Shown here: in pieces, positions 2,969-48,214 of the stretch | Layout: each line of letters opens with the position of its first letter | How positions within the stretch are numbered: the stretch's first letter is position 1 | Source of the DNA: Daphnia pulex | Taxonomy: Eukaryota > Arthropoda > Branchiopoda > Diplostraca > Daphniidae | Direction: 5' to 3' | DNA: 64,000 nt | Assembly (NCBI RefSeq): GCF_021134715.1 | Contig: NC_060022.1 | Span: forward strand, 2,175,001 to 2,239,000 | Made by a program: the position numbers and the translations under genes | Notes under the pieces: model-generated | Seen by the model: only the letters and a program-made list of their open reading frames with translations | Told to the model about the DNA's origin: nothing | Databases searched by the model: none

Positions 2969-3400
2969 TGTGCGAGTTAAACAATGCAACCCACTACCCA
3001 ATGAAACAAAAAGCCATGGTTTAGTTTTGCGCAAATCTCCGTCAGTCAAGTTACAAATTTTTCTAATTCAACAACTCGTGTAGAATTTTTGCATCTAGTC
3101 TATTAGTGCAAATCGCGATTCCATGTGTTTGGTAGTTAAGAAAATGGTTGTTTAAAAAACAAACAATGGGATGTTCTGAAGCCAAAAAAACTCACCATTG
3201 TTTGTTTTTTAAACAACCATCTTCTCAACTACCAAACACATAGGATCGCTATTTGCACCAGTAGACTAGATGCAAAATTCGACAGAAGTTGTTGAGTTAG
3301 AAAAATTTGTAACTTGACTGACGCAGATTTCCGCAAAACTAAACCATTGCTTTTTGTCTCATTACCGCAGCGGTGGTGGCGGGTTGCGTTTAACTCGCAC
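2969..3400. repeat. Long hairpin-forming palindrome, copy 1
   Basis: The sequence from GTGCGAGTTAAAC at about 2,970 returns as its reverse complement at about 3,389-3,400. The inner stem from 3,091 to 3,168 pairs with 3,194-3,275 almost perfectly, for example GTTTGGTAGTTAAGAAAATG against the AACTACCAAACAC side. A loop of about 25 nt remains. Transcribed, it would form a hairpin of about 200 bp. The outer arms match the palindrome at 45,608-46,127, but the inner stem sequence is different there. Confidence 0.85.
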
Positions 3401-3800
3401 AGTAGAAAAACGTCTTGAACCGGGCGCGCTGTTTATTAAATTTTTGAACATTTTAAAAAGAAAATAAAAAAATTGGTTCATATAATATATTTATTTTTAT
3501 TTATTATAGATATTACATGGTTAAGGTTTAACATTGGTTTATAAGGTTAAGGGTATAAATTTAAGGGATGGTAGGTGTATGTTTTCGGGGTTGGAAGGAT
3601 TGGAAGGTTTACGTTTGTGGGGTTTGGAGATTAATTGGTAGGGATACATTTGTAGGGTTATAGATTAACTGAAATTTTATCCCAACAAGAAATATCCTCC
3701 CTCCCCCCTCCAACATCCTCCACTTTCCTTTCCCAATCCCGGAAACATGTTTATTATTTGTTGACATATAAACATCCCATATTTGTTTTTGTTGCTTCTG
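3401..3800. repeat. G-rich degenerate minisatellite and pyrimidine-rich tract of copy 1
   Basis: Irregular units rich in GGTTAAGG, GGGGTT and GGAAGG run from about 3,520 to 3,660, followed by a C/T-rich tract. The same order of parts occurs in copy 2 (46,260-46,500), where the units are a clean 33-bp tandem repeat. No gene. Confidence 0.55.
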
Positions 3801-5200
3801 AACTTATTAACGGTAAACTGCATAGTCACGATGACAATTTAACAATATAATGATGCAATTTCGGTAACACGAAACCAGCACCAAGGAACGGCTAATTGAA
3901 TTTGATGTAGAAAGCTCTTTCACCAGCATAGGCTGCAACAACGTGCTACATCGGACTGCAACTACGCGAACAAAAATGCCAAACCTATAACCATATTGAA
4001 ATGAATTAATCTTCAGCATCAATGGAAATGCTGTCAATGAAAAGACGAATAAATGTCACTTTATGTTATTTACAGGAGTTAAAGCCCTCAGCTGGCTGCG
4101 TCAAATCCATGTGTAAGTTGGGCAGCAACAAAGAAGCTCAAACTCCACCAGGGTGTTAATCCTATTTTCAAAAAAACACAATTACTATCAAGCAACAATT
4201 TCTCAAATGACTAAACAAAAATGATCAAAGTTAAGTTATATCACGAAATCCTTCAGAATAAATGTTGCAAAGGAATGTACAGTTGGCAAGCTTTTCCAAG
4301 GTTCAATTTCTACAACTTAAATTGGTTGAAGAGATAGGCACCAACTAAATCTGTAGTCTCACAGTTAGAAAGTTGAACATTATATTTACCTGAATTGTTC
4401 TGAAGTGTTTCTGACAAACGTGAAGCTGGTACAGGAAAAAGAGACGACATTTTGGCAGAATGTTCAGCTGCTCAGGCCACATGATCAGATGAAATTGCCA
4501 TGTAGAAATTATAGGCTGTTGCTTGTTAGTTGCAACAGCAATTACATAAACCTTTAACCAAAATGAAATGAAATTAATCTTTTAAATAATCAAATAATCA
4601 ATAAAAAATAATCAAATATCATTCAACTAAGCAATCCAACAGAATTACTTTTAAAAATATTACACAAGAAATCGACAGTTGGCAAGCAAAACGACAAGGC
4701 AAGTTGAAAGAGTCTTAACTGAAAAGTCAACAGAAATAAAGCAAAGAACTAGTCAACAACAAAGTAAATTGTAGCCTTACTTTAAAAAAGTTTTCCAACA
4801 TAATTACTTCAATGCCTGTAACGAAAGCTACAACTGGTACAGGTAGCAAGCCTGCAACTGCAAGAGGAACACCTTTCGCGGTTTCACCAGCTAGCTGCAA
4901 CAAATCCATGTGCACATTGGACTGCAATGAAGAAGCTCAGATTTCACCATGCTGTTAATAGAAAAATAAAAGCTAAAATACTGTAAAAAAAATAAGGTCA
5001 TAAAATAACTAAATGTGTAACTTACAGTTAAAAAGTTGACCAACATAATCACTTTTATTGTTCTGAAGTATTTCTGTATCACTGCATGTGACGAAACGTA
5101 CAGCCGGTACGGACAACAAGAGACGACATTTTGGGAAAATGCCATATGATCAGATGAAATTGCCAAATATAAATTGTAGGCTATGTTATCTGTAAAGTTC
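3801..5200 (-). repeat. Right arm of large inverted repeat with exon-like modules
   Basis: Modules on the minus strand lie at about 3,915-3,965, 4,080-4,170, 4,390-4,500, 4,790-4,960 and 5,050-5,200. They are reverse complements of the left-arm modules. The module at 4,790-4,960 read on the minus strand has the same acceptor (CTATTAACAG) and a matching donor context (TTTAAAGTAAG) as the left-arm module at 1,321-1,470. Each frame is stopped. The arm therefore looks like repeated exons of a non-coding or decayed transcript unit. Confidence 0.7.
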
Positions 5201-5619
5201 ACCACACAATAAATTTACATCTAATAACCTTAAAGAATACAAGCAGGAATTACCATTTTTGAGACGAATAAATCCAGGGAAGAAATAATTCTCGAACAGA
5301 CAAACAGTTTCTCCAAAAGAAGGCGTTACTTTGCTTGGCATTCACTTGTTAGTTGTTACGCGGTTGTTGGTCGCTCGTCCTCGTCGAATGCCAGCAGCCA
5401 TTTTGAAAGGGACGCGCAAGGTGCAACATTGCCATTGTCAGTTTTGCAATTCTGTCATGCCAATTTGGCCGCAATTTGGGAACCTATAAATAAAAGATAA
5501 AAAATGTCAGCTTGATTATAATTTGTGTCATTCTTTCATCAATGTGCTTGATGTCTATGATTTTTAAGTACAGATCAACACTTTAAATAAATATTCGACT
5601 GCAATGAAGAAAGTTCAGT

Positions 5620-5850
5620 GATATGACAAGTGATCTTACGCATGAAACCACCGATCAATTATCCAATAGAAGATGGAATGAGAGATTGGTCCGTTCTGGG
5701 GTTGGTGATCTCCAATACAAACAGCCGATAATTAAGATGAATCCTAATAAAACATGAGAAGAATATACATAAGTTAGCAATACTGTAATAAAGCTAGTGT
5801 TAGTTGTTACCTGTATCATTTCGATGGCACATTTAGTAGAATTAAATTTT
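5620..5850 (-). repeat. End block, inverted copy of 44,745-44,975
   Basis: Read on the minus strand, this block matches 44,745-44,975 on the plus strand over about 230 bp. Shared words include TTCTACTAAATGTGCCATCG, CTAGTGTTAGTTGTTAC (plus-strand form) and GATGGAATGAGAGATTGGTC. Its orientation is opposite to the main repeat, as expected if it is the terminal inverted part of the same element. The adjoining 5,201-5,619 and 5,851-5,995 hold no gene that I can support. Confidence 0.75.
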
Positions 5851-5995
5851 CGATCAACTGATTAAGAGTCCCAAAAATAGGTTGGGTGATCTCCCTAATA
5901 ACAAGAATTTACGATTGCCGTTGTCTACGAATTCGATTACAACCTGATTACAACATAATAGGGGAATAAGTTTTCGCTCATTCTATAACCCTGTT

Positions 5996-8900
5996 AGATC
6001 CTCTTTGGCTCTTTCTCGAAGGTGGCGTTTGTCAACTGCTTATGAAAATAAATGGAAATATTCGTTTTGTTGCCTCTCTGCTCAGACAGGCAATAAAAAA
6101 AACCTGGCGCACCAAACTTTTAGTACATGTTATTTAATATTTAAATACGCTACATTTACCGACTGTAATAACGGTCAAACGTCCCCTCAGACTTTTAATA
6201 GTTGGACGTTTCAAAATAAAACTTATCCTCCAAATTATTAACTACATTTGGTGAATTACCGTAGTTTACGTACAGTATCAAAAATTGATACGCAATACTT
6301 TCAAATTACACATCTCCAGCTCCAAAAGGAAGAGCTTCTGTATAATAAATATTCAAATTCAATTAATTCTACAAAAACTTTTTTTCGCAAGACATTATCT
6401 GGTGCCCTTGCCTCGTGCGCGTATGTGCCGGTGTGGCTCTATACGGTCCCTCTTTGTCAATGGATAGTTACTGGTTTACTTCCAGTCTGAAAACTTCGAA
6501 CTCGAGTTCCGCCACTAGAGTTTCGCCCCCCTCTTCACTTGCCGTCAATTTGTCTCTCCTATATTTGCATAATTTGATTAGGTAGCGGCAGCCAGAAGCT
6601 CCGACTGTTCACAAATTTCTTGTTATGTCGAGGGAAACGGAGAATTGAGATGAAAGATACACAGCTGGAGGATTTAATAAACTAGCGGTCCGTATTTAGA
6701 CACAGAAACTACAGTCGAATAGGGCAGCAGCATATTGGAAGCGATCATCATTCATCGCCTTAAGTTTCGAATCACGCCCCCGTGATCCTGCAGGATATAT
6801 GGAAGTATGGAGCTAGTACACAACCCAGTATAGCAGTAGCCTATGACTTTTAGAGTGTATGACAGTTTCAGGATTTCGAGTACGTATACGATTGCTGCAG
6901 AAGTTTCTTATGATGTTGAAATATAGTTCGATATTCGATTTTCTGTACTATCTCGTCAGAGCTTTCTCGGCTCTGACTGCGCCATAGGATTTAGAGGTTT
7001 TCCGACAATACACGATCAATGGGCACAACGCAGCAGCAGCAGTGTAAAAAACTTTCTGCGGCGGACTGTATATTCCTTATAGAGTCGATGTACTCACTGT
7101 ATACTACTCCCTAATACTTTACACGTTCCATCAAAGAGTTCGACTCGGATCGGATAGCATATAGGTTACGGTGCGGAGTTTACGGAATAAGGCGTGCATG
7201 CTGCTGGAGTTGGAAGCATTTTATTTATCGCCACAGAGGAATATACTCAGACTGTACGGTGCAGTGTACGTAGTTATATTTTGTCACATAAAACTGCTGT
7301 TTATTACACTCGGCAACTTTATAAATGCCTAATGGCAAGCCTATAATGGTATCAGCCAAGAGACTTTTGCTCGACAGTGTTATATGTCTCATATACCCGC
7401 TATAAAGTTGTATATCTAGTAGACCGATGCGATACTTTTGCATTTCAGACAACGAATCGCAATTAAGTTTTGTGGCCTAGAGAAATTTGTCAGGTGTGTT
7501 TATTGCGCGCTTATTGATTTAAAAATGCAATTTGATCTTATATACGCTGTATAACCAACGTTATTTTTATTTTAGAGACATGCACAGTAGGTAGTAGCCT
7601 ATAATGTCGGCAATAATAAAATTCTGAAATGTATTCGTTGAATTATACTGCATTTGAATTTGGTGTTTGCAAATAAAAATGCGCTTGGTAGTAGCTAGTA
7701 TATCGTATACGATCGATGAACGAAATAAGGAAATGCATGAATTCAAACAAACAACAGCTGCCATATGTTGAGTTTCACTGGCCCCAAAGTGTGTCAACAA
7801 TACCATTTTAATGCTAATCAGCTATTCCTTGCATTGCTAAACCGACAAAGGAAAGAGAGACGATGCATTTACGCTGCTGAGTTTACGGAATAAGTTGTCG
7901 GAGGGGAAATCACGCTAAATTTCTAATGACGTGTGATTATCTTTGAGAAGGTAATCGTTCAGCTAATTTGATACTTCAGCACAGGACTGGGCTGTAATGG
8001 CAAATAAACCTCTTTCTTTTATTTCAAGCTTAGCGATTCGTGGGTGGTACGACAACAGGCGAAATTTTAACCTAAATAAACAGAAAATCGGTAGAAAAAA
8101 AGCCGAAAAAAAGGCTCTGACTCTGATCTTTGATTCGCTAAACGTTTAGCTGAAGCCGCAATAGTAGCAGAAGTATTGCTTTCAAAGCATGTTAGCTTAT
8201 AGCCTACAAGTTTCTGTACAAATCCTTCCTTTCTAGTTCTATCTCAAATAAAACATGAACAAAGCAAAGAAAAGAAAATTTGAGTTTGGAAATAAGGGCG
8301 AATAATAGTTCAGTAAGAAAGGAACGATGAGAACACGAACAGAACGTATAATAGGGCCAAAAGGTGCGGTTTTTGTTTGTGAGGATTATGTGGAAGAGCA
8401 AAACATCGTTTCCCCTTCGTTTCTTGTTTTGGTCTCCCAGCATTACATAAAAGAGTTGGCGAACGTTCTGTACGAACCACACATACAAAAGCGAAGAGGA
8501 AAACTGACGAGAAAATATTCCACAGCACTGCATCTTTAGAAATTTGAAATAAGCGGATTTTCAGTACGTTTGTTCAATTATCAAGCTACTCGTTAAATCG
8601 CTTTTTGTTACTGAGAGCTCAATAAGGACTTCCAAAACCTTGTCACTGCATTCAGCATCAAGGTCTGTGGGTCTGTGTGTGTGTGATAAAGGACAAAATT
8701 TAAAACATTTTGGTATATTATTTGCGCCCACAGTTAGGCATCAGTTGTAGTAACGTCTCCAGCCTGATGTGTAATTACAGCCCCGATAGAGTTTGTCTAC
8801 GAACATACTCGATGGGCACAGTGAGAAAATGAGTGGACGCCACTGCTGAGGAAGCGGAGTAGAACGGTGGAAAAAAGGCGTTGCTGGCGGGTCGCAATCA

Positions 8901-35700: not shown

Positions 35701-38700
35701 CCAACTCCTCCCATTTTTTATTCAGTGATGTTCACGTCTCTTGCGAGAATAGTAGAGCCTTCTTACGAAGTTTCTTATTCAAATTTCTTTTTGCTTTTTG
35801 CCTTGGTTTCCCACATTCATCGTAAGGGCGTTCCTTTAGACCTTTCGTGTAGTATTTCACACGATCTTAGGAACGCTAAATATAATGTACACGATAAGCT
35901 TTTATTAGTTAAAAAAAAATAATAATGGCGTAATAGCTTGCGTCAACCAAGTCTGGCTAGTTTGTGTTAGTTTCCCAACTCTATAAACACTGTAACGTCA
36001 TTAATTCAATCTGTTTATTGCAGTGCCATTAAGAATCTTGGGGAACGTCGTACTGGATAGGCCAATAAGTTTCAGTGACAAGCGCTTGGTGGACGGAGTC
36101 ACGACCGAGGTAAGTTCATTTCCTCCCGAAACTTACTACTGGTAAATTACTTAATGTTATTTCCTATTTCTTTTCAGTTGAAGAAAATGACCGACGAATT
36201 AACAGCGTACCTGTTCGTGGTGGGTTCAGTCGATCTGTTCGAGTAAGTTCATCGTTTAAAAATAAGAGAGAAAATTCGGAATTTTTATTATTCTTTTTGG
36301 CTTCCAGATCTGATTCAAATCGGCTACAGTTCATACTATGGAATTCCGAGAATTACAATATGAGCCGGACGAATTGGATCCAGCAGCAAGTTCCTTCCGT
36401 GGCAGCCGTAAAAAGCCGAGGTTTCACTGCACTACTCAATCGATCGGCCACCGGACTTCGGTCCTCTTGGACTGGCGTCATGAAGAGGATGCCGCGTGGC
36501 ATCATAAATCCATTCACCACCACCTACATCCCACAGCAGTGGAACAACTCTTATTCGTCCTTCGTCAACCAAATAAACACGAAAACGTGGAAAGTGCAGG
36601 GCGAAGCCATCGCCATTCGAAACCTCAGCATTGTCCAAGTTCCAGCTCTCATCATCGAGGTCCGAATTTCTTGCCATTATTTTGTTATGCACAATTTATT
36701 CACGTTTATTCCGTACCATCTATTCATGCAGTGGGTAAAACTGGACGTCAAAGGTCAGGTTCGAGAAGGCTATCCCTTCACAGTGGCATGCAACGCAAAC
36801 GGCTCGGGTAGGAAAGATTTGAAAATGGACTGGTTCAAGGATGGCCATAAGGTGGACGACTCTTTTGCTCTGGCGCGCAACGTGTCCATCTTCATTCACG
36901 AGAATCAGGACCTTCGAGGATTCTTCACGTTTTATTTGGAGGTGAAACAGGCGTCGTTAGCTGATCGTGGCGAATTTGAATGTCGGGCCACTGACTGGGG
37001 ACAGACTGTCCGGAAGAGCGTTTTTCTCGACGTCATCACCCCTCCCATTCTCGACCTGATGCCCATCAATCCCGTTGTCCTGCCGGTATTTTCTTGTTTC
37101 TCTTTCGGAAAAAGAAATATTGCATTGACACCAAATTGGAAATCCTTGTTACTTTTTTGTAGGGAACGGCCGTGAATTTGACGTGTCGTGATGAGAACCA
37201 TCTGGCCCGGCGGACGACAACCAAGTACGTCTGGTTGAAAAATGGCCGGCCGATTGAATCGTCATGTGATGAGATCATTGAAGATTTGACGCCAGTCGGG
37301 AGTCTTTTGAAAATCACTGCGATTCAGGTTCGTTGATTTCTTCCAATTTAATATTTTTCGATTTCACCTGATCTTATTCCGTGTGATTGATGATAACCGA
37401 AATTTGTCGTCCAATATTTAGCATAGCACCAATTACTCATGCCGAGGTGAAAACGGAACCAAACTGGCGAACAAGACGACGCACATTTTTGTTGTTCGTC
37501 CAGACAGAGCCTGTCCCCAGGAGAAGAACCGGGGCGTCGAATGGCTTATGACGGCTGTTGACGTCACCAATTATCAATTCTGTCCAGCCGGATACGTTGG
37601 CGTGACAAGGAGACGTTGTCTCTCCGTTAAACAGCCGATAGACAACAGCGAAATCGCAGCGACTGCAGTTCGGGAATTTTGGAAATGGGGCGAACCAGAT
37701 TTTTCCGACTGCAGTGATCGTGAAGTCACCGAACTCTACCGTCAGTTGAAGTTGATCACTTTGGGCTATGCCGTCACCGATATCGCCTCCATCATCAACA
37801 AATTTGCCGATTTCATTCAAAGAAAACTCAAAGATTTTGCAGATCACGAGAGTCTGAAAAGTGCGGGTAGCGAACAGACAACCCAATTCCTTTATCTGCC
37901 TGGCGAAGGCAACGCTCTGCTAGAAATAGCCATGAACTTGGAGGCTTTTCTCTGGAGAAGGACAGAAGTTTTACCACAGTCCTTCTGGAACTCGACAGCT
38001 ATCCAATACTTGTATGCACTTGATGCCCTGCTGTCCATGCCAAAAGACTTTTTCCGCTTGGATGTAAGTAGGAAGCGGTCATTAGTTGTTTATGGAAAAT
38101 GAATAAAGTTTTCTTGAACTTGTTTTTTTCCAGGGAGGAATACCGATCCTGCGATTCATCCAGAATCACTTGACTCTGTTAGGCATCAGTCCGAAAGGAG
38201 GATATCCTCTTGGTGCCATTGAATCGCATCTATTAAAGAACAGCGACATTGACACCGACTTTAATAAGTAAACCAGAATTTGTTATTTTCGTTGTCCTTT
38301 ACTTTTAAAAATTGTTTGATTCTTTCCAACGTCCAGGAAAGAGCTCAAGTACAAAGAACGTTTGAAATTCTTGCCAAGGTATTTTTATCTTAATTGTTGC
38401 AATATCACTTGAATTTTATTGTTCTAATAATCTTATTCCCTTTTGAATAAAGTCAAACAGGTTTCAAAAATCTTACGCAACTTGCGCCCGCCCAATTCTT
38501 TCTCAATAAACCAAACGGATCCAACGTGACGATGGATTTCTTTTCGACGGTTGAACAACTGCAGATAAGGGGCGGTGAATATATTTGCGCCTTGTTGCTC
38601 CTTCAACCCACAAATCATTCCCGTGGATGGGACTATTGGGACATGAATTCTTGTTCCATCGAACGGCTGTCGGACCCGTCTGCGTTCCGCTGCCTTTGCT

Positions 38701-42530: not shown

Positions 42531-42536
42531 TTTATT
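42531..42536 (-). terminator. Polyadenylation signal of the peptide precursor
   Basis: AATAAA on the minus strand, 107 nt past the stop codon of the precursor. It is the first such hexamer downstream. Confidence 0.6.
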
Positions 42537-42642: not shown

Positions 42643-43813
42643 TTATCGGCTTGCTTTTTGTTCCAATTTCAACGCCTCTGCGGAACGACGCCCACGCCAG
42701 TATCGGCGGTAACCGCCATAATAGCCGCGGTAGAACTGGCTGGTTCTTGATCAATCAATTGATCAAATCTTCAAAAAATTTACCTTTAAGTATTTTTCCT
42801 TCCGTATCCAGGCAATCCATGCAGCGTCAATTGTATATGATAGGCTGATAGTACTATGGTACCAAATCAAATTTTTGACAATAAGAATTTTTGTTTATTT
42901 GACCATTTCACCGTGGTTTTAACAAACAAGGATAGCTTATTGAAATGTGGAAAAGCCAAATTTAGTGCAAGGTTCGTTGAAATAGTCCGGATTCAGCTTT
43001 TTCTTTTTTTTTTAAAGTCGGGATCTCACTTACCAATAGTATCCATTGCGATATCCGTACCTGCTGTAACTGTAAGGATAACCATAATAACTACGGCCGT
43101 ACCATTCGTTAGCGTCCAGGTCACCATCAACTTTAACATCGACATCTTTTTCCGGTGTTATTTCATCTACGGATCGACGTCCACGCCAATATCCCAGACC
43201 GTAACAGCCTCGGCGAGACTCGTTGATTTCCAGGTCAGTATTAATGGTTCCATCTTCTTCTGATGTCATCTCCCTTTCAGCGGAACGACGTCCACGCCAG
43301 TGTCCACTGGTACTTAAGTATCGACCATAGTACCCATAAGGACGGCCGTAGTAGCGGCTTCCGTACGATTCGTTGCCGTTCAAGTCATCTCCAACTTCAA
43401 CGTTGCTGGCCTCTTCTTCCTGTTTTGCTTCTTCTACTGAGCGACGACCACGCCAATAGCCAAGATGTCCACCGTAGTAGCCGCGACGGAACTCGATTGC
43501 CTCCTGGTCAGCAACTTCGATGTTGGCTTCGTGTTCCGGTTGCACCTCCTCGACAGACCGACGTCCACGCCAGTATTCATGATATCCACCGAAATAACCA
43601 CGTCGGTGCCGTTCAGCGACGTCTTGATCAGACACTTCCACGTTGCTCTCGGTTTTAGGTTTTACATTTACCTCAACGGCAGCAGTCAGTGCCAATGAAA
43701 GGCTAGCCAATATAACCTAAACATCAACATTTAATAAATTTGTGTACGGTACTTAATCATAAATGTCAAACACGGTGTAATGATAGCGACAAAGAACTCA
43801 CCACGAACTTCAT
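42643..43813 (-). CDS. Secreted precursor with five W-R-G-R-R-S cassettes; candidate amidated-peptide prohormone
   Basis: Exons on the minus strand: 43813-43802, 43716-43034, 42739-42643, giving 263 residues. Residues 1-17 are a clear signal peptide (start MKFVVILASL). The mature part alternates Gly/Tyr-rich segments with acidic spacers rich in E, D and V. Five cassettes end in WRGRRS, at 53-58, 92-97, 144-149, 181-186 and 246-251. Three of them start after RR (GYFGG at 44, GYYGG at 83, GCYGL at 174); a fourth follows a single R (GYYGG at 237). By prohormone logic, cutting after RR, trimming and Gly conversion would give peptides ending YWR-amide or HWR-amide. I do not recognise a named family. 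The alternative is a Gly/Tyr-rich antimicrobial or structural secreted protein with furin sites. The last cassette sits alone in exon 3. Confidence 0.85.
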
Positions 43814-43861
43814 TTCGAACGAGTTGAAAAATTAGTAGCAAGCTGTTGGTCAGTTGCAAGA

Positions 43862-43899
43862 AACTGATGCTGTTGAAATTTTCATTTGGACTATTTATG
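43862..43899 (-). promoter_or_regulatory. TATA box plus initiator of the peptide precursor
   Basis: On the minus strand, ATAAATAG (43,891-43,898) is followed about 31 nt later by TCAGTT (43,862-43,867), an arthropod-type initiator. The start codon at 43,813 lies about 50 nt further. Spacing and motifs are those of a focused core promoter and support this gene's first exon. Confidence 0.65.
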
Positions 43900-44744
43900 C
43901 TTCGCCGTTCAATGACAAATCCGGCCACATCGTTTAATTCTTTCCACATTAGAAATTAACGATTAACAAATAAAACTTCACATCGTCCCTGAATTCTGTT
44001 TGTTAGATGTATATCTTTTATGTTCGTATTATAGACTATGGATACCGAAACCAATCCTTAACCGGACATGAGAAGTGTATCGCGAAATTATCTTCCGTAT
44101 AGAGAAAACTTTCAAGGCAGCCCAAAACATTACTGTTAAGGTTAATTAGTTTGTACAAAGACAATAAAGATACGGTTGAACCAACAATCAGCAAACAGCT
44201 TATCTGCTTCGATACACACATGGTTCGTGCCACATTTCCCAGAAAATGTAAGGGAACATTAGTTTTGCTTAACACCCTGTTTTATTTGTTTATTTTTATT
44301 CGTCTACAGTCTACACTAGCGTGTCCGTTAAACCGTTAACGGTTTAGTAAACTTGTACTCAATAACTCAAGTATCCCACCCTAGATGGCGAAATCCTCGT
44401 CATGGAAAATTGTTGTCTAATTTGGGCCTTATTTCTTTGTTGAAAAAATGGCGGTCATGTGCGAGTGTCGGGACGTCAGGTTTAATTAAGCGGCAGCAAG
44501 TAACCGGCTTACGTCAACAATTCGTGCAGTAACAAACAGCAATCAGCAGTGTATTGCAGCATGGAGTACCAAGAAGAAGAAAGTTTAGAAGAAAACAGTT
44601 TCAAACAGTAAGTTAAGTCAGAATTTTAGAATTTCAGCGAAGGAAGTTGTTTTGTTATCATGACATGTCATTGGTCTCTTCAGATTTCAGAATACCTTTT
44701 AATTAATATTAATATGTCAGAATTAATGTTAAATTATCATAATT
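43900..44744. other. No firm gene; possible isolated first exon at 44,561
   Basis: An ATG at 44,561 opens a 47-nt segment (M-E-Y-Q-E-E-E-S) that ends at a good donor, GTAAGT at 44,608. No acceptor exon continues it convincingly, because the DNA to the right belongs to the repeat. A minus-strand frame at 44,036-44,275 lacks an ATG. Nothing else is seen. Confidence 0.35.
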
Positions 44745-44975
44745 AATCAAACTCATTGTATTCTACTAAATGTGCCATCGAAATTATACAGGTAACAACT
44801 AACACTAGCTTTATTACAGTATTGCTTCAACATATATTCTTCTCATGTTTTATAGGATTCATCTTAATTATCAGCTGTTTGTATTGGAGATCACCAACCC
44901 CAGCATGGACCAATCTCTCATTCCATCTTCTATTGGATAATTGATCGGTGATTTCATGCATAAGAAGATCACTTG
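44745..44975 (+). repeat. End block, inverted copy of 5,620-5,850
   Basis: About 230 bp match in reverse complement to 5,620-5,850, with small indels (for example CTTCAACATATATTC here against CTAACTTATGTATATTC there). It marks the left end of the second repeat copy. Confidence 0.75.
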
Positions 44976-45228
44976 TTTTGTATTGTTGTTTTTTTTATGT
45001 ACAGGTTCTTAATTAAAGGTTTCTAAATTGTCATGACCAACTTTATGAGAAGTCATGTCCATTCAAGAAAAGGACAAGGACTCTACAGTCAACAAGGTTC
45101 CGTGTTTGCTATCCTGCTACCCTTGGATCTCCCTACACAGGCCCTCTTGCTTTGAGGTATTGCTTTCTGTCACAACAATCTTGTTTGAATATTATTGGCA
45201 TCCAAATAAATGTTCATTCTGCTTACAG

Positions 45229-45306
45229 GGTAATCCTTCGCTACTGATCATGGACTCTATTGGTGAAACTGAAAACCGACGAGAGAATGCTGTAATCCAA
45301 GACTGA
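45229..45306 (+). pseudogene. Possible captured exon fragment, SENP/Ulp-like
   Basis: A good acceptor (TTCTGCTTACAG) precedes a 78-nt frame that begins G-N-P-S-L-L-I-M-D-S and ends in TGA. The P-x-L-L-x-M-D-S pattern resembles the strand of SENP6/7-type SUMO proteases that reads P-C-I-L-L-M-D-S. No catalytic His, Asp or Cys lies nearby, and the frame stops before any donor. In copy 1 the same position holds an unrelated acceptor-led frame. The resemblance is short, so the family call is weak. Confidence 0.25.
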
Positions 45307-45607
45307 TAAATTGTGTAGTTAGATTTAATTACAAGTGCATATCTGGGCTCCCTTCTTTTCTGTGGCCCCGTTTCCCTAACTACCACTAACCAACGCCGGT
45401 AGTCACTCACCCGTTGTGAAACCAAGAGGAGGGGAGGGCTCTGGTCGAACGGGGACTTGGAAGGCGCATGATCCGACGAAAACTTAGGGTCATGAGTCTA
45501 ACCCGGAAACCTAGTATGACTAATCGCTCCCCAGTAAAACTTGCCTCGCACTCTTCTCTCTTCTTCCATTTCCAGGTAATCTCCCTGGATCTACGCCGAC
45601 ACTGCAT

Positions 45608-46127
45608 GTGCGAGTTTTAGCAAGCAATCCGCCACCCAATTTGACAAAAAGTGATAGTTTGTTTTCACGGAAATTTCGTCAGACGGTTACAAAATTTCTA
45701 ATTCAACAATCTCATGTAGAAATTTGCATCTAGTCTACTGGTGCAAATTGTGATTCTTTAAGCTTGATTAATTTAGGTGATGTGTTAAAAGCAATTGTGG
45801 GTAGCTAAACAATGGAACTATCCACTTTTTCTGAATATTTTGGTTTTAGATCACTTTGTTGTTTTTAGATTTTCTTGTGATCTATCTTCAAAATATTCTG
45901 AAAAAGCGAATTAGTTCAATTTTTTAGCTACCCACAATTGCTTTTAACACATCACCTAAATTAATCAAGCTTAAAGAATCGTAATTTGCACCAGTAGACT
46001 GGATGCAAATTTCTACATGAGATTGCTGAACTAGAAATTTTTTAACCGTCTGACGCAATATCCGTGAAAACAAACTATCACTTTTTGTCAAATTGGGTGG
46101 CGGATTGCTTGCTAAAAAGCCTCGCAC
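45608..46127. repeat. Long hairpin-forming palindrome, copy 2
   Basis: It runs from GTGCGAG at 45,608 to CTCGCAC at 46,121-46,127. The inner stem pairs 45,727-45,855 with 45,878-46,008, for example GTGTTAAAAGCAATTGTGGG against CCCACAATTGCTTTTAACAC. About 20 nt remain as loop. The outer arms match copy 1, but the inner stem is a different sequence and still self-complementary. Confidence 0.85.
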
Positions 46128-46270
46128 AAAAAATATTGTCTCGAACCGGACGCTCTGTTTAATAAATTGTTTATTTTGTAAGTGTTCCAAAAACAGAATG
46201 AGTTTTCATAACATATAACTGGTTTATTTATTCAACAAAAAAATTTATATATTACAGATGTGGGGAAATG

Positions 46271-46369
46271 GGGGTTTAAGGAATAGATGTTGGTGGAAGT
46301 TTTGGGGTTAAAGGAATGGATGTTGGTGGAGGTTATGGGGTTTGAGGAATAGATGTGGTTATATAGATA
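46271..46369. repeat. 33-bp tandem repeat, three units
   Basis: Units start at 46,271, 46,304 and 46,337. Each begins GGGGTT and carries AGGAAT-A/G-GATGT. The first two differ at only a few positions; the third degrades after about 24 nt. Confidence 0.75.
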
Positions 46370-47840
46370 GGTATATGGATGGGATAGATAAAGGAATTTT
46401 ATTTCTACCTTATTAAAACAAACCACGACTTTTTCTAGTTAATGAAAATCAATTATCCCCCCCCCCCAGGTTTCCCAATCGCGAAGGCATGTTTATTATT
46501 TGTTAACGTAAAAATTCCCCGTATTACTATTTTTTTCATTCTCAACATATAAACGGTTAACTTCATAGACGCAAATGGCAATTAAACAAAATACAGGATG
46601 TAACTTCTGTGGCACAACACCAGCGATTCAACACCAAGGAACTTTTCTGTTCCTTTTCAACATAAAAACGGTTAACTGCATAGACACAAATAACAATTAA
46701 AACTGGATGTAACTTTTGTGCACAACACCAGCAGTCCGGCACCAAGGAACAGCAACAGCATAACTCGATGCAAAAAATCTTTCACCAGTATAGGCTGCAA
46801 CAACATGCCATATTGGACAGCAACATCACTGCTACGTAAACATAAACCTAAGACCAAAATGAAATTAATGTTTGATCAATGGAAATTTTGTATAGAATAA
46901 AACAAAAATCATTTCAAATGGAGTTCACCCAAATATTCTATGGCAACACCATCTGATAACTATAGTTTAAACAAAAATTTACATGAATTACTAGATTACT
47001 CATTTAAGATTTCAATACAAATTCATTTGAAATTTGTAGTGCTCTGCAGCGAAAAAAAAACATTCTTCTACAGTATCTGCCTATCTTGTTAACCAATTCC
47101 CCTTAAACAATCCATAACTCAATTTACATATGATCAAAGGAAAGAGCTGTTGACATGATGAAATCCCCAAATGTTAAAATTAAACAATGTAAGCAATTAT
47201 AGTAGTCCAAGCATGATACTTCTCAAGTAAGAACTTATAATTTTTTATCAAATTACCATTTCAAAGAGTCTTCTTGCAGTTCTACTAGATGTCCAACATT
47301 TCGGCAACCACAATGCAGCATGATCCAGCGTCAACTCAGATATGGCTGATCCCAGAAGACTTTGCATGGGACTCTCCCACACTCCAGGACAACATCAGCA
47401 CCAAAGACTGCATGCAACAGCTCAATTTAATCACACCTTTCACCGGATGACTGCAACCAATCCATGTGCACATTAGACTGCAACAAAGAAGCGCAGACTT
47501 CATCTGGCTATTGAAAAACAAAATCAAGTTACTATCAAGGAACAGAATCTCATGTAACATAACCAAAACGACAGAAGTATGAAGTTAAACTATACCATCT
47601 CTCAGAGTTACCTTGATAAATCTTACGAAGGAATTTGTAGTTGTCAAGTTTTCCAACTTGAAAATAACAAATGTAATCCACATTTCCATAATGGTTTTAA
47701 CTCATAATTGCAACAGAGAAGCAAATGGGTCTACTCTCTAGTCGAAACTAAATCTGTAGCGATCAACTATAATTACTTTAATTGAAAATGTTCCGCATGT
47801 GACGAAACGAGCAAGAGACATTTTGGAAAAAATGGATAGC

Positions 47841-48214
47841 AGTTTCAACTTTCAACAAACGAAGTCAAGTATGTCAGTAAAAAGCATAGAAAAAAGTAAA
47901 AAACACACTTTCCGCTCAGTGTCTTTAGAAGAAATGGCAGAAATTTCCCAATTTCGTCAGTAGACCTGAACCTGATGAAATGGGATTCCATAGAGCAGTA
48001 TGAAATTTCTTCACTAGGTGTCTTGCCTCGCCGAATCGTCGTCTGCTCCAGACCTGTAAACTGATTAGGTTATGACGTACGGGAATAGAGATCATAATAC
48101 TTTTTGTTATAATATTATGTGATTTATATTCAAAATTTCTATTTGGAACAGTTAAAGTCATTTTTACCGTCCGTTAAGAAATCGAAGCATTGTTTCGTTG
48201 AATGATAACTCAGA
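47841..48214. other. No gene; upstream region of ERG28
   Basis: A minus-strand frame (47,925-48,161) lacks recognisable character. The ERG28 promoter must lie here; no TATA box was identified. Confidence 0.4.

Follow-up and report, generated by a model that had tools for sequence, protein, structure and literature searches.

Gene structure at the locus

The window, a stretch of 64,000 nucleotides of the Daphnia pulex genome, carries on its minus strand a gene, here called G1, whose three-exon form runs from start to stop codon at 42643..43813, as delimited by spliced translation and a protein search. The initial annotation had marked exactly this interval. Up to three exons would together encode a secreted precursor of 263 amino acids. 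Coding exon 1 (43802..43813, minus; placed by spliced translation) supplies four codons, MKFV, and is separated by intron 1 (85 nt, GTGAGT..TTTAG, minus) from exon 2 (43034..43716, minus), which sits in an open frame at 43030-43716 (minus) and encodes the rest of the signal peptide, the spacers, cassettes 1-4 and the first part of core 5. A conditional exon 3 (42643..42739, minus) would add the end of core 5, a fifth WRGRRS and the C-terminal tail. Both introns (85 and 294 nt) begin with GT, end with AG and are compatible in phase. The putative signal peptide, MKFVVILASLSLALTAA (43678..43813, minus; its end judged by eye), is split by intron 1.

Spliced translation supports the precursor that had been proposed for this DNA, with its signal-type opening sequence and its repeated cassettes: WRGRRS occurs five times, its codons starting at 43572, 43455, 43299, 43188 and 42699. 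Core 1, GYFGGYHEYWR (43567..43599, minus), core 2, GYYGGHLGYWR (43450..43482, minus), and core 4, GCYGLGYWR (43183..43209, minus), each stand between RR and GRRS, and these are the three repeats (3/5 cores) that the annotation had placed directly after RR. Core 3, SYGSRYYGRPYGYYGRYLSTSGHWR (43294..43368, minus), precedes GRRS, and neither it nor the exon-2 part of core 5, WYGRSYYGYPYSYSRYGYRNGYY (43036..43104, minus), has a dibasic site in front of it; the starts of both were drawn by hand, as we drew all spacer and core boundaries in G1. The cores measure 11, 11, 25, 9 and 39 amino acids, with net charges of 0, +1, +4, +1 and +7. The acidic spacers claimed earlier are likewise present, five of them (24, 23, 24, 23 and 23 amino acids) with net charges of -3 to -8, and the protein closes with a 13-residue tail of net charge +1. 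If amidated, cores 1, 2 and 4 would have predicted MH+ values of 1433.64, 1327.63 and 1073.50. In 20,000 composition shuffles of G1, four produced one WRGRRS and none produced two. The looser motif G[RK][RK] is less special, with a shuffle mean of 0.8 and a maximum of 6 against 5 observed in G1.

Two possible endings of G1

Four of the WRGRRS motifs lie within exon 2 and the fifth is reached only through exon 3, so the five cassettes of the initial annotation hold for the 263-residue model and not for the exon-2 frame. In fact, an alternative stop codon, TAA (43030..43032, minus), stands directly after TGG and overlaps the intron-2 donor GTAAGTG. The short form would carry four WRGRRS motifs, its last core being free and ending ...NGYYW. 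An AATAAA lies 131 nt past this stop (42894..42899, minus), and a second one about 107 nt past the stop of exon 3 (42531..42536, minus). Exon 3 resembles the cassette-2 part of the query (63% identity, E 4e-8, in a search against the window).

These observations raise the possibility that exon 3 is a displaced piece of another copy and that the gene ends at ...NGYYW, a substantial possibility to which we give somewhat less than an even chance. The sister copy, G2, shares the W-stop and the downstream AATAAA, exon 3 was not found in it, and another copy, G5, likewise ends in Trp followed by TAA. Against this, the donor and acceptor of intron 2 are consensus-like, the phase is correct, the frame is intact and an AATAAA is present behind exon 3. 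Because G2 has the same ending without exon 3, we regard a four-motif product as about as likely as a five-motif product, or both may be made. The matter concerns gene structure and is compatible with any functional reading below.

A family of seven copies

Searches of the genome (13 contigs, 133 Mb; the window lies on contig C6) with three member proteins found at least seven copies of the family, distributed over contigs C2 and C6. The four C2 copies, G6 (9622k), G3 (9632k), G4 (9637k) and G5 (9640k), lie within about 18 kb, and the three C6 copies are G7 (27k), G1 (in the window) and G2 (2364k). Three copies are intact, one is truncated and three are apparently damaged. G1, G3 and G4 are intact by eye. 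G7 is a decayed copy of G4 with a stop inside the signal peptide and a divergent end; in G6 the AG of the first acceptor is gone and the copy is shortened; the second cassette of G5 is frameshifted relative to G6, possibly through an assembly error. First exons of four codons, reading MKF[VL] or MKLT in the alignment of 5' ends, are found in the six other copies too, and MKF or MKL followed by a hydrophobic stretch opens G1, G3, G4 and G5 (by eye).

G1 and G2 are part of a duplicated 5.1-kb segment that comprises exons 1-2 of G1 and the region upstream and is 95% identical to its G2 counterpart. Window positions 42819-47908 correspond to positions 3183-8298 of a C6 piece (L020); the two lie about 146 kb apart and have the same orientation. 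Over 693 coding bases the two copies differ at 5, with 3 replacements (dN 0.006, dS 0.013), too few differences for selection between them to be judged.

All seven copies share a protein pattern and a core promoter in our searches, the promoter pattern having been built from the same copies. Genome-wide, a loose WRGRR[S-like] pattern gave 77 matches against 42 for its reversed control. Four of these matches outside the family, at C4:311817, C7:1815710, C5:1864474 and C2:977224, were inspected and contained no cassettes, and a weak protein match at C3:9405840 (E 4.96) was set aside as noise.

A core promoter confined to the family

Upstream of the G1 start codon lie a core promoter and 5' leader of the form TAAATAG ... 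ATCAGTT initiator ... CAACTGAC (43849..43897, minus; C6:2218849-2218897). From an alignment of the seven 5' ends we derived the pattern TAAATAG, 15-35 bases, CAGTT, 2-8 bases, CAACTGAC, which has seven matches in the genome, namely the seven copies, and 0 in the reversed control. Recovery of the copies that served to build the pattern is by construction; the informative part of the search is the absence of any other match. NF-kB-type sites, for which two patterns were tried, were absent within 450 bp upstream of all seven copies, and GATA-type sites occur in the upstream regions of three (G1, G2 and G6). In all seven copies the initiator together with the leader makes up a dyad, CAGTT-(N)-CAACTG.

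Selection on the paralogues and their junctions

Compared as far as the first junction, the six pairs of G1, G3, G4 and G5 have dN values of 0.28-0.40; dS is 1.0-1.7 in five pairs and undefined for G1/G5. The resulting dN/dS of 0.17-0.30 (5/6 pairs) is rough, the values being near saturation. Even with dS near-saturated, such ratios show the paralogues to be old and constrained proteins. Identity between paralogues is 23-55% in the spacers and 52-69% in the cores, with the order reversed in G3/G5.

Could G1 then be a chance open frame and not a gene? The lack of a database match in the Pfam and PDB scans might suggest so. The idea is countered by the purifying selection on the paralogues, by a promoter common to the whole family and by the failure of composition shuffles to reproduce the WRGRRS repeats, and we consider it exceedingly improbable.

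Across all copies there are 17 junction-like motifs: 15 WRGRRS, one HRGRRD and one WRGYSW at the end of G4. For the codon table we used ten internal junctions of G1, G3, G4 and G5, leaving aside the recent duplicates G2, G6 and G7 and the end of G4. All ten have Arg at P4, P2 and P1 and Gly at P3; this count is partly circular, since RGRR was itself the mark by which junctions were recognised. The codons at P4, P3, P2 and P1 number 3, 4, 2 and 4 respectively, and all of this variation is synonymous. Trp at P5 and Ser at P1' are each found in nine of the ten. At the junction Gly there were at least three synonymous changes and no replacements, for which the chance without selection is roughly (1/3)^3 = 0.04; given a chance of that size, the evidence for an amidation glycine can be called suggestive but falls short of strong.

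The cleavage and amidation route of the initial annotation is thus consistent with RGRR/S and its Gly at every recognised internal junction. It fits less well elsewhere. Gly plus a dibasic site follows 10 of 13 family cores and is lacking after the C-terminal cores of G3, G4 and G5, and a dibasic site precedes 7/13, so not every peptide has one before it. With no Gly-Arg-Arg end, the last cores of G3, G4 and G5 and of the G1 short form would not be amidatable in this way.

A neuropeptide precursor?

The annotation had called G1 a candidate WR-amide peptide precursor, processed by the route that is standard for arthropod neuropeptides. The peptide precursor with cassettes stands; the neuropeptide is one of three functional readings, and in our judgement an unlikely one. 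It holds that G1 is the precursor of amidated neuropeptides or gut hormones, cut at RR and RGRR, whose ...[YH]WR-amides share a C-terminus and act on one receptor. Gly at the amidation position of all ten internal junctions, spelled by four codons, argues for it, as do the near-constant Trp at P5 (9/10) and the RR before three of five G1 cores. The genome also encodes enzyme domains relevant to it: proprotein-convertase P domains (8 exon matches) and Cu2_monoox_C domains (14 exon matches), the latter common to the amidating enzyme PHM and related monooxygenases. A fixed C-terminus with variable N-termini is known in other arthropod peptide families, which gives this reading a precedent. We know of no arthropod neuropeptide family that ends in WR-amide. 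Nor do we recognise a parent neuropeptide of G1, which counts against this reading in view of how seldom new ones arise. The relevant decapod-insect comparison, as far as the portion of that study used here extends, describes new neuropeptides as coming almost only from duplicated known ones, with hyrg a possible exception, but it also reports paralogues of some neuropeptide genes in decapods, a point in favour (PMC4888303).

In layout the precursor of Dappu-RPCH is similar to G1, with a signal peptide, an amidation glycine and a dibasic site after the peptide (PMC5537346). Searched as degenerate codons, the RPCH peptide itself, pQVNFSTSW-amide (PMC5537346), gave one exact hit in the genome and none with the reversed control, as would be expected of Daphnia pulex or a close relative. 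Compared with amidated neuropeptide precursors, however, the G1 family has cassettes of variable length (cores of 9-26 amino acids, or 39 where exon 3 is used), last cores that would not be amidated (three without Gly-Arg-Arg), dibasic sites ahead of only the 7/13 cores noted above and a paralogous array with damaged tandem copies, all of which weigh against a neuropeptide. Decapod hyrg, a candidate neuropeptide precursor from crustaceans only, is described in the part of the source consulted without classical convertase sites, which the G1 family has; the two are compared by description (PMC4888303).

Core composition and database searches

The 12 tabulated family cores (the last stretch of G3, whose limits are unclear, is not among them) contain, when pooled, 32% Tyr, 22% Gly, 13% Arg and 7% His. 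Eleven are net basic and the remaining one has a net charge of 0. The initial annotation could not place the protein in a known family and had weighed a known cuticle or antimicrobial family against its own proposal. The scans agree: Pfam gave no family over cut-off for G1, G3, G4 or two pieces of G5, and PDB no relative of G1 or G3 up to E 1. Membership of a Pfam cuticle, chitin-binding or antimicrobial family was accordingly rejected for these sequences, and the only rows, both far below their cut-offs, were tRNA_int_endo_N (E 2.4) and DUF6491 (E 0.06). Rfam gave nothing over the gathering score in the window. The string WRGRRS had no match in the literature text searched, which says little since sequences are mostly in figures or supplements, and the part consulted of a report on Daphnia expressed genes contains nothing on the family (PMC1940262). 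Overall, G1 is by its predicted layout built like known polyprotein peptide precursors, and the Pfam and PDB scans did not place it in a known family.

The high Tyr and Gly content fits structural proteins too. G1 could be a structural or adhesive secreted protein of cuticle, peritrophic lining, egg coat or cement, with its Tyr cross-linked and RGRR either separating modules or left uncut. G1 has a four-codon first exon, its signal peptide is interrupted by an intron and its promoter is of TATA/initiator type, a layout known from arthropod cuticle genes. A single-sequence structure model of exon 2, with a mean pLDDT of 31 and no confident fold, would be compatible with a disordered precursor and with this reading, as weak evidence. 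The absence of a Pfam cuticle or chitin-binding match for the sequences scanned speaks against it, and a plain structural protein would not need a conserved RGRR/S and regular acidic spacers. We find this reading as unlikely as the neuropeptide.

A putative defence effector polyprotein

To explain these results we propose to place G1 in a small family of secreted precursors of the "string-of-peptides" kind that would release defence effector peptides, a role that we put first and rate as close to, if still under, an even chance. A furin-like convertase would cut after RGRR during secretion, a carboxypeptidase would trim the Arg pair, and the exposed Gly would be converted to a C-terminal amide; internal units would thus end ...WR-amide. 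The convertase P domains and Cu2_monoox_C domains of the genome support this route as well. The acidic spacer would neutralise the basic, sticky core within the precursor. Where RR stands before a core the spacer would be cut away, and elsewhere spacer and core may remain joined. The cores would then act extracellularly as surface- or membrane-binding defence peptides in epithelium or haemolymph, the weakest step of the scheme. Cutting at RGRR/S would be its best supported processing step. RGRR/S alone is a complete furin-type site, so the Arg of "WR" may serve cleavage rather than a receptor. To set short WR-amide peptides free, the precursor would have to be cut ahead of the core as well.

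We rank a defence effector first because of the Baramicin-like layout, the basic aromatic cores with acidic spacers and the history of duplication and decay. Variable core length, RGRR/S, non-amidatable last cores and decay would suit an effector polyprotein at least as well, and in our view the damage among the tandem copies speaks for an effector family more than for a neuropeptide. Three findings count against defence: the absence of kB-type sites upstream, our proxy for immune induction (7/7 copies, 450 bp); the presence of GATA-type sites in no more than three of the seven copies; and the low net charge of cores 1, 2 and 4 of G1 (0 to +1, the amide not counted), which is weak for a membrane-active peptide. 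Moreover, the tandem-peptide layout is called rare among antimicrobial peptides in the consulted part of the Baramicin study (PMC8423362).

That same part of the study offers a close parallel (PMC8423362). Drosophila Baramicin A is, like G1, a precursor cut into several peptides, with tandem units between RXRR furin sites, and a duplication of its locus is reported, as in the G1 family. In G1, G3, G4 and G5 an RXRR does stand between tandem related units, as RGRR at 10/10 recognised internal junctions. The units differ, by description only: those of Baramicin A carry a VXRPXRTV motif, whereas G1 has Tyr/Gly-rich cores closed by WRG (PMC8423362). Baramicin A is also induced through Toll (PMC8423362), while no kB-type site was found within 450 bp upstream in the G1 family.

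The peptides of the nlp-29 cluster of C. elegans, like the cores of G1, are rich in Gly and Tyr. The cluster, named "neuropeptide-like", encodes putative antimicrobial peptides and has diversified by duplication within a small genomic region, which recalls the G1 array with its dispersed, decaying copies (PMC2453101, in part). The multi-cassette RGRR layout with acidic spacers is not described for this nematode cluster in the portion of the source used, and the likeness is one of description (PMC2453101).

Daphnia is a model of host-parasite coevolution, and a D. pulex genome survey could not recover antimicrobial peptides (PMC2685406), which makes an antimicrobial family that escaped recognition plausible. 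We envision, as a tentative and rather unlikely extension of the defence effector reading, that the G1 family represents an unnamed group of host-defence peptides of water fleas, amidated and rich in Tyr and Gly. They would be made as polyproteins that furin cuts and that carry their own acidic neutralisers, and they would fill part of this gap. Should the family encode neuropeptides instead, they would form a new peptide family, new neuropeptide genes being considered rare in the part of the decapod work cited above (PMC4888303). Found by anatomy and not by homology, the G1 family provides candidates in the form of seven loci, together with predicted masses and a promoter specific to the family.

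Neighbouring frames

Between G4 and G5 on C2 (piece L019, about 2007-1538, minus) lies a two-exon frame of secreted type, also with a four-codon first exon. It has an internal repeat (IDRISPP/LDRIPPL/IDQIHPL/IDRMMPG) and encodes a different protein, and its promoter does not fit the family pattern. Beside G5 (L019 4370-8998, minus) are open frames of 671 and 871 amino acids that look mobile-element-like by eye. In the window, which has 46 frames of at least 110 amino acids, one of the ten frames scanned had a Pfam match: a frame at 36114-37172 (plus) that encodes an immunoglobulin I-set domain (E 4.9e-6) and lies about 5.5 kb from G1.
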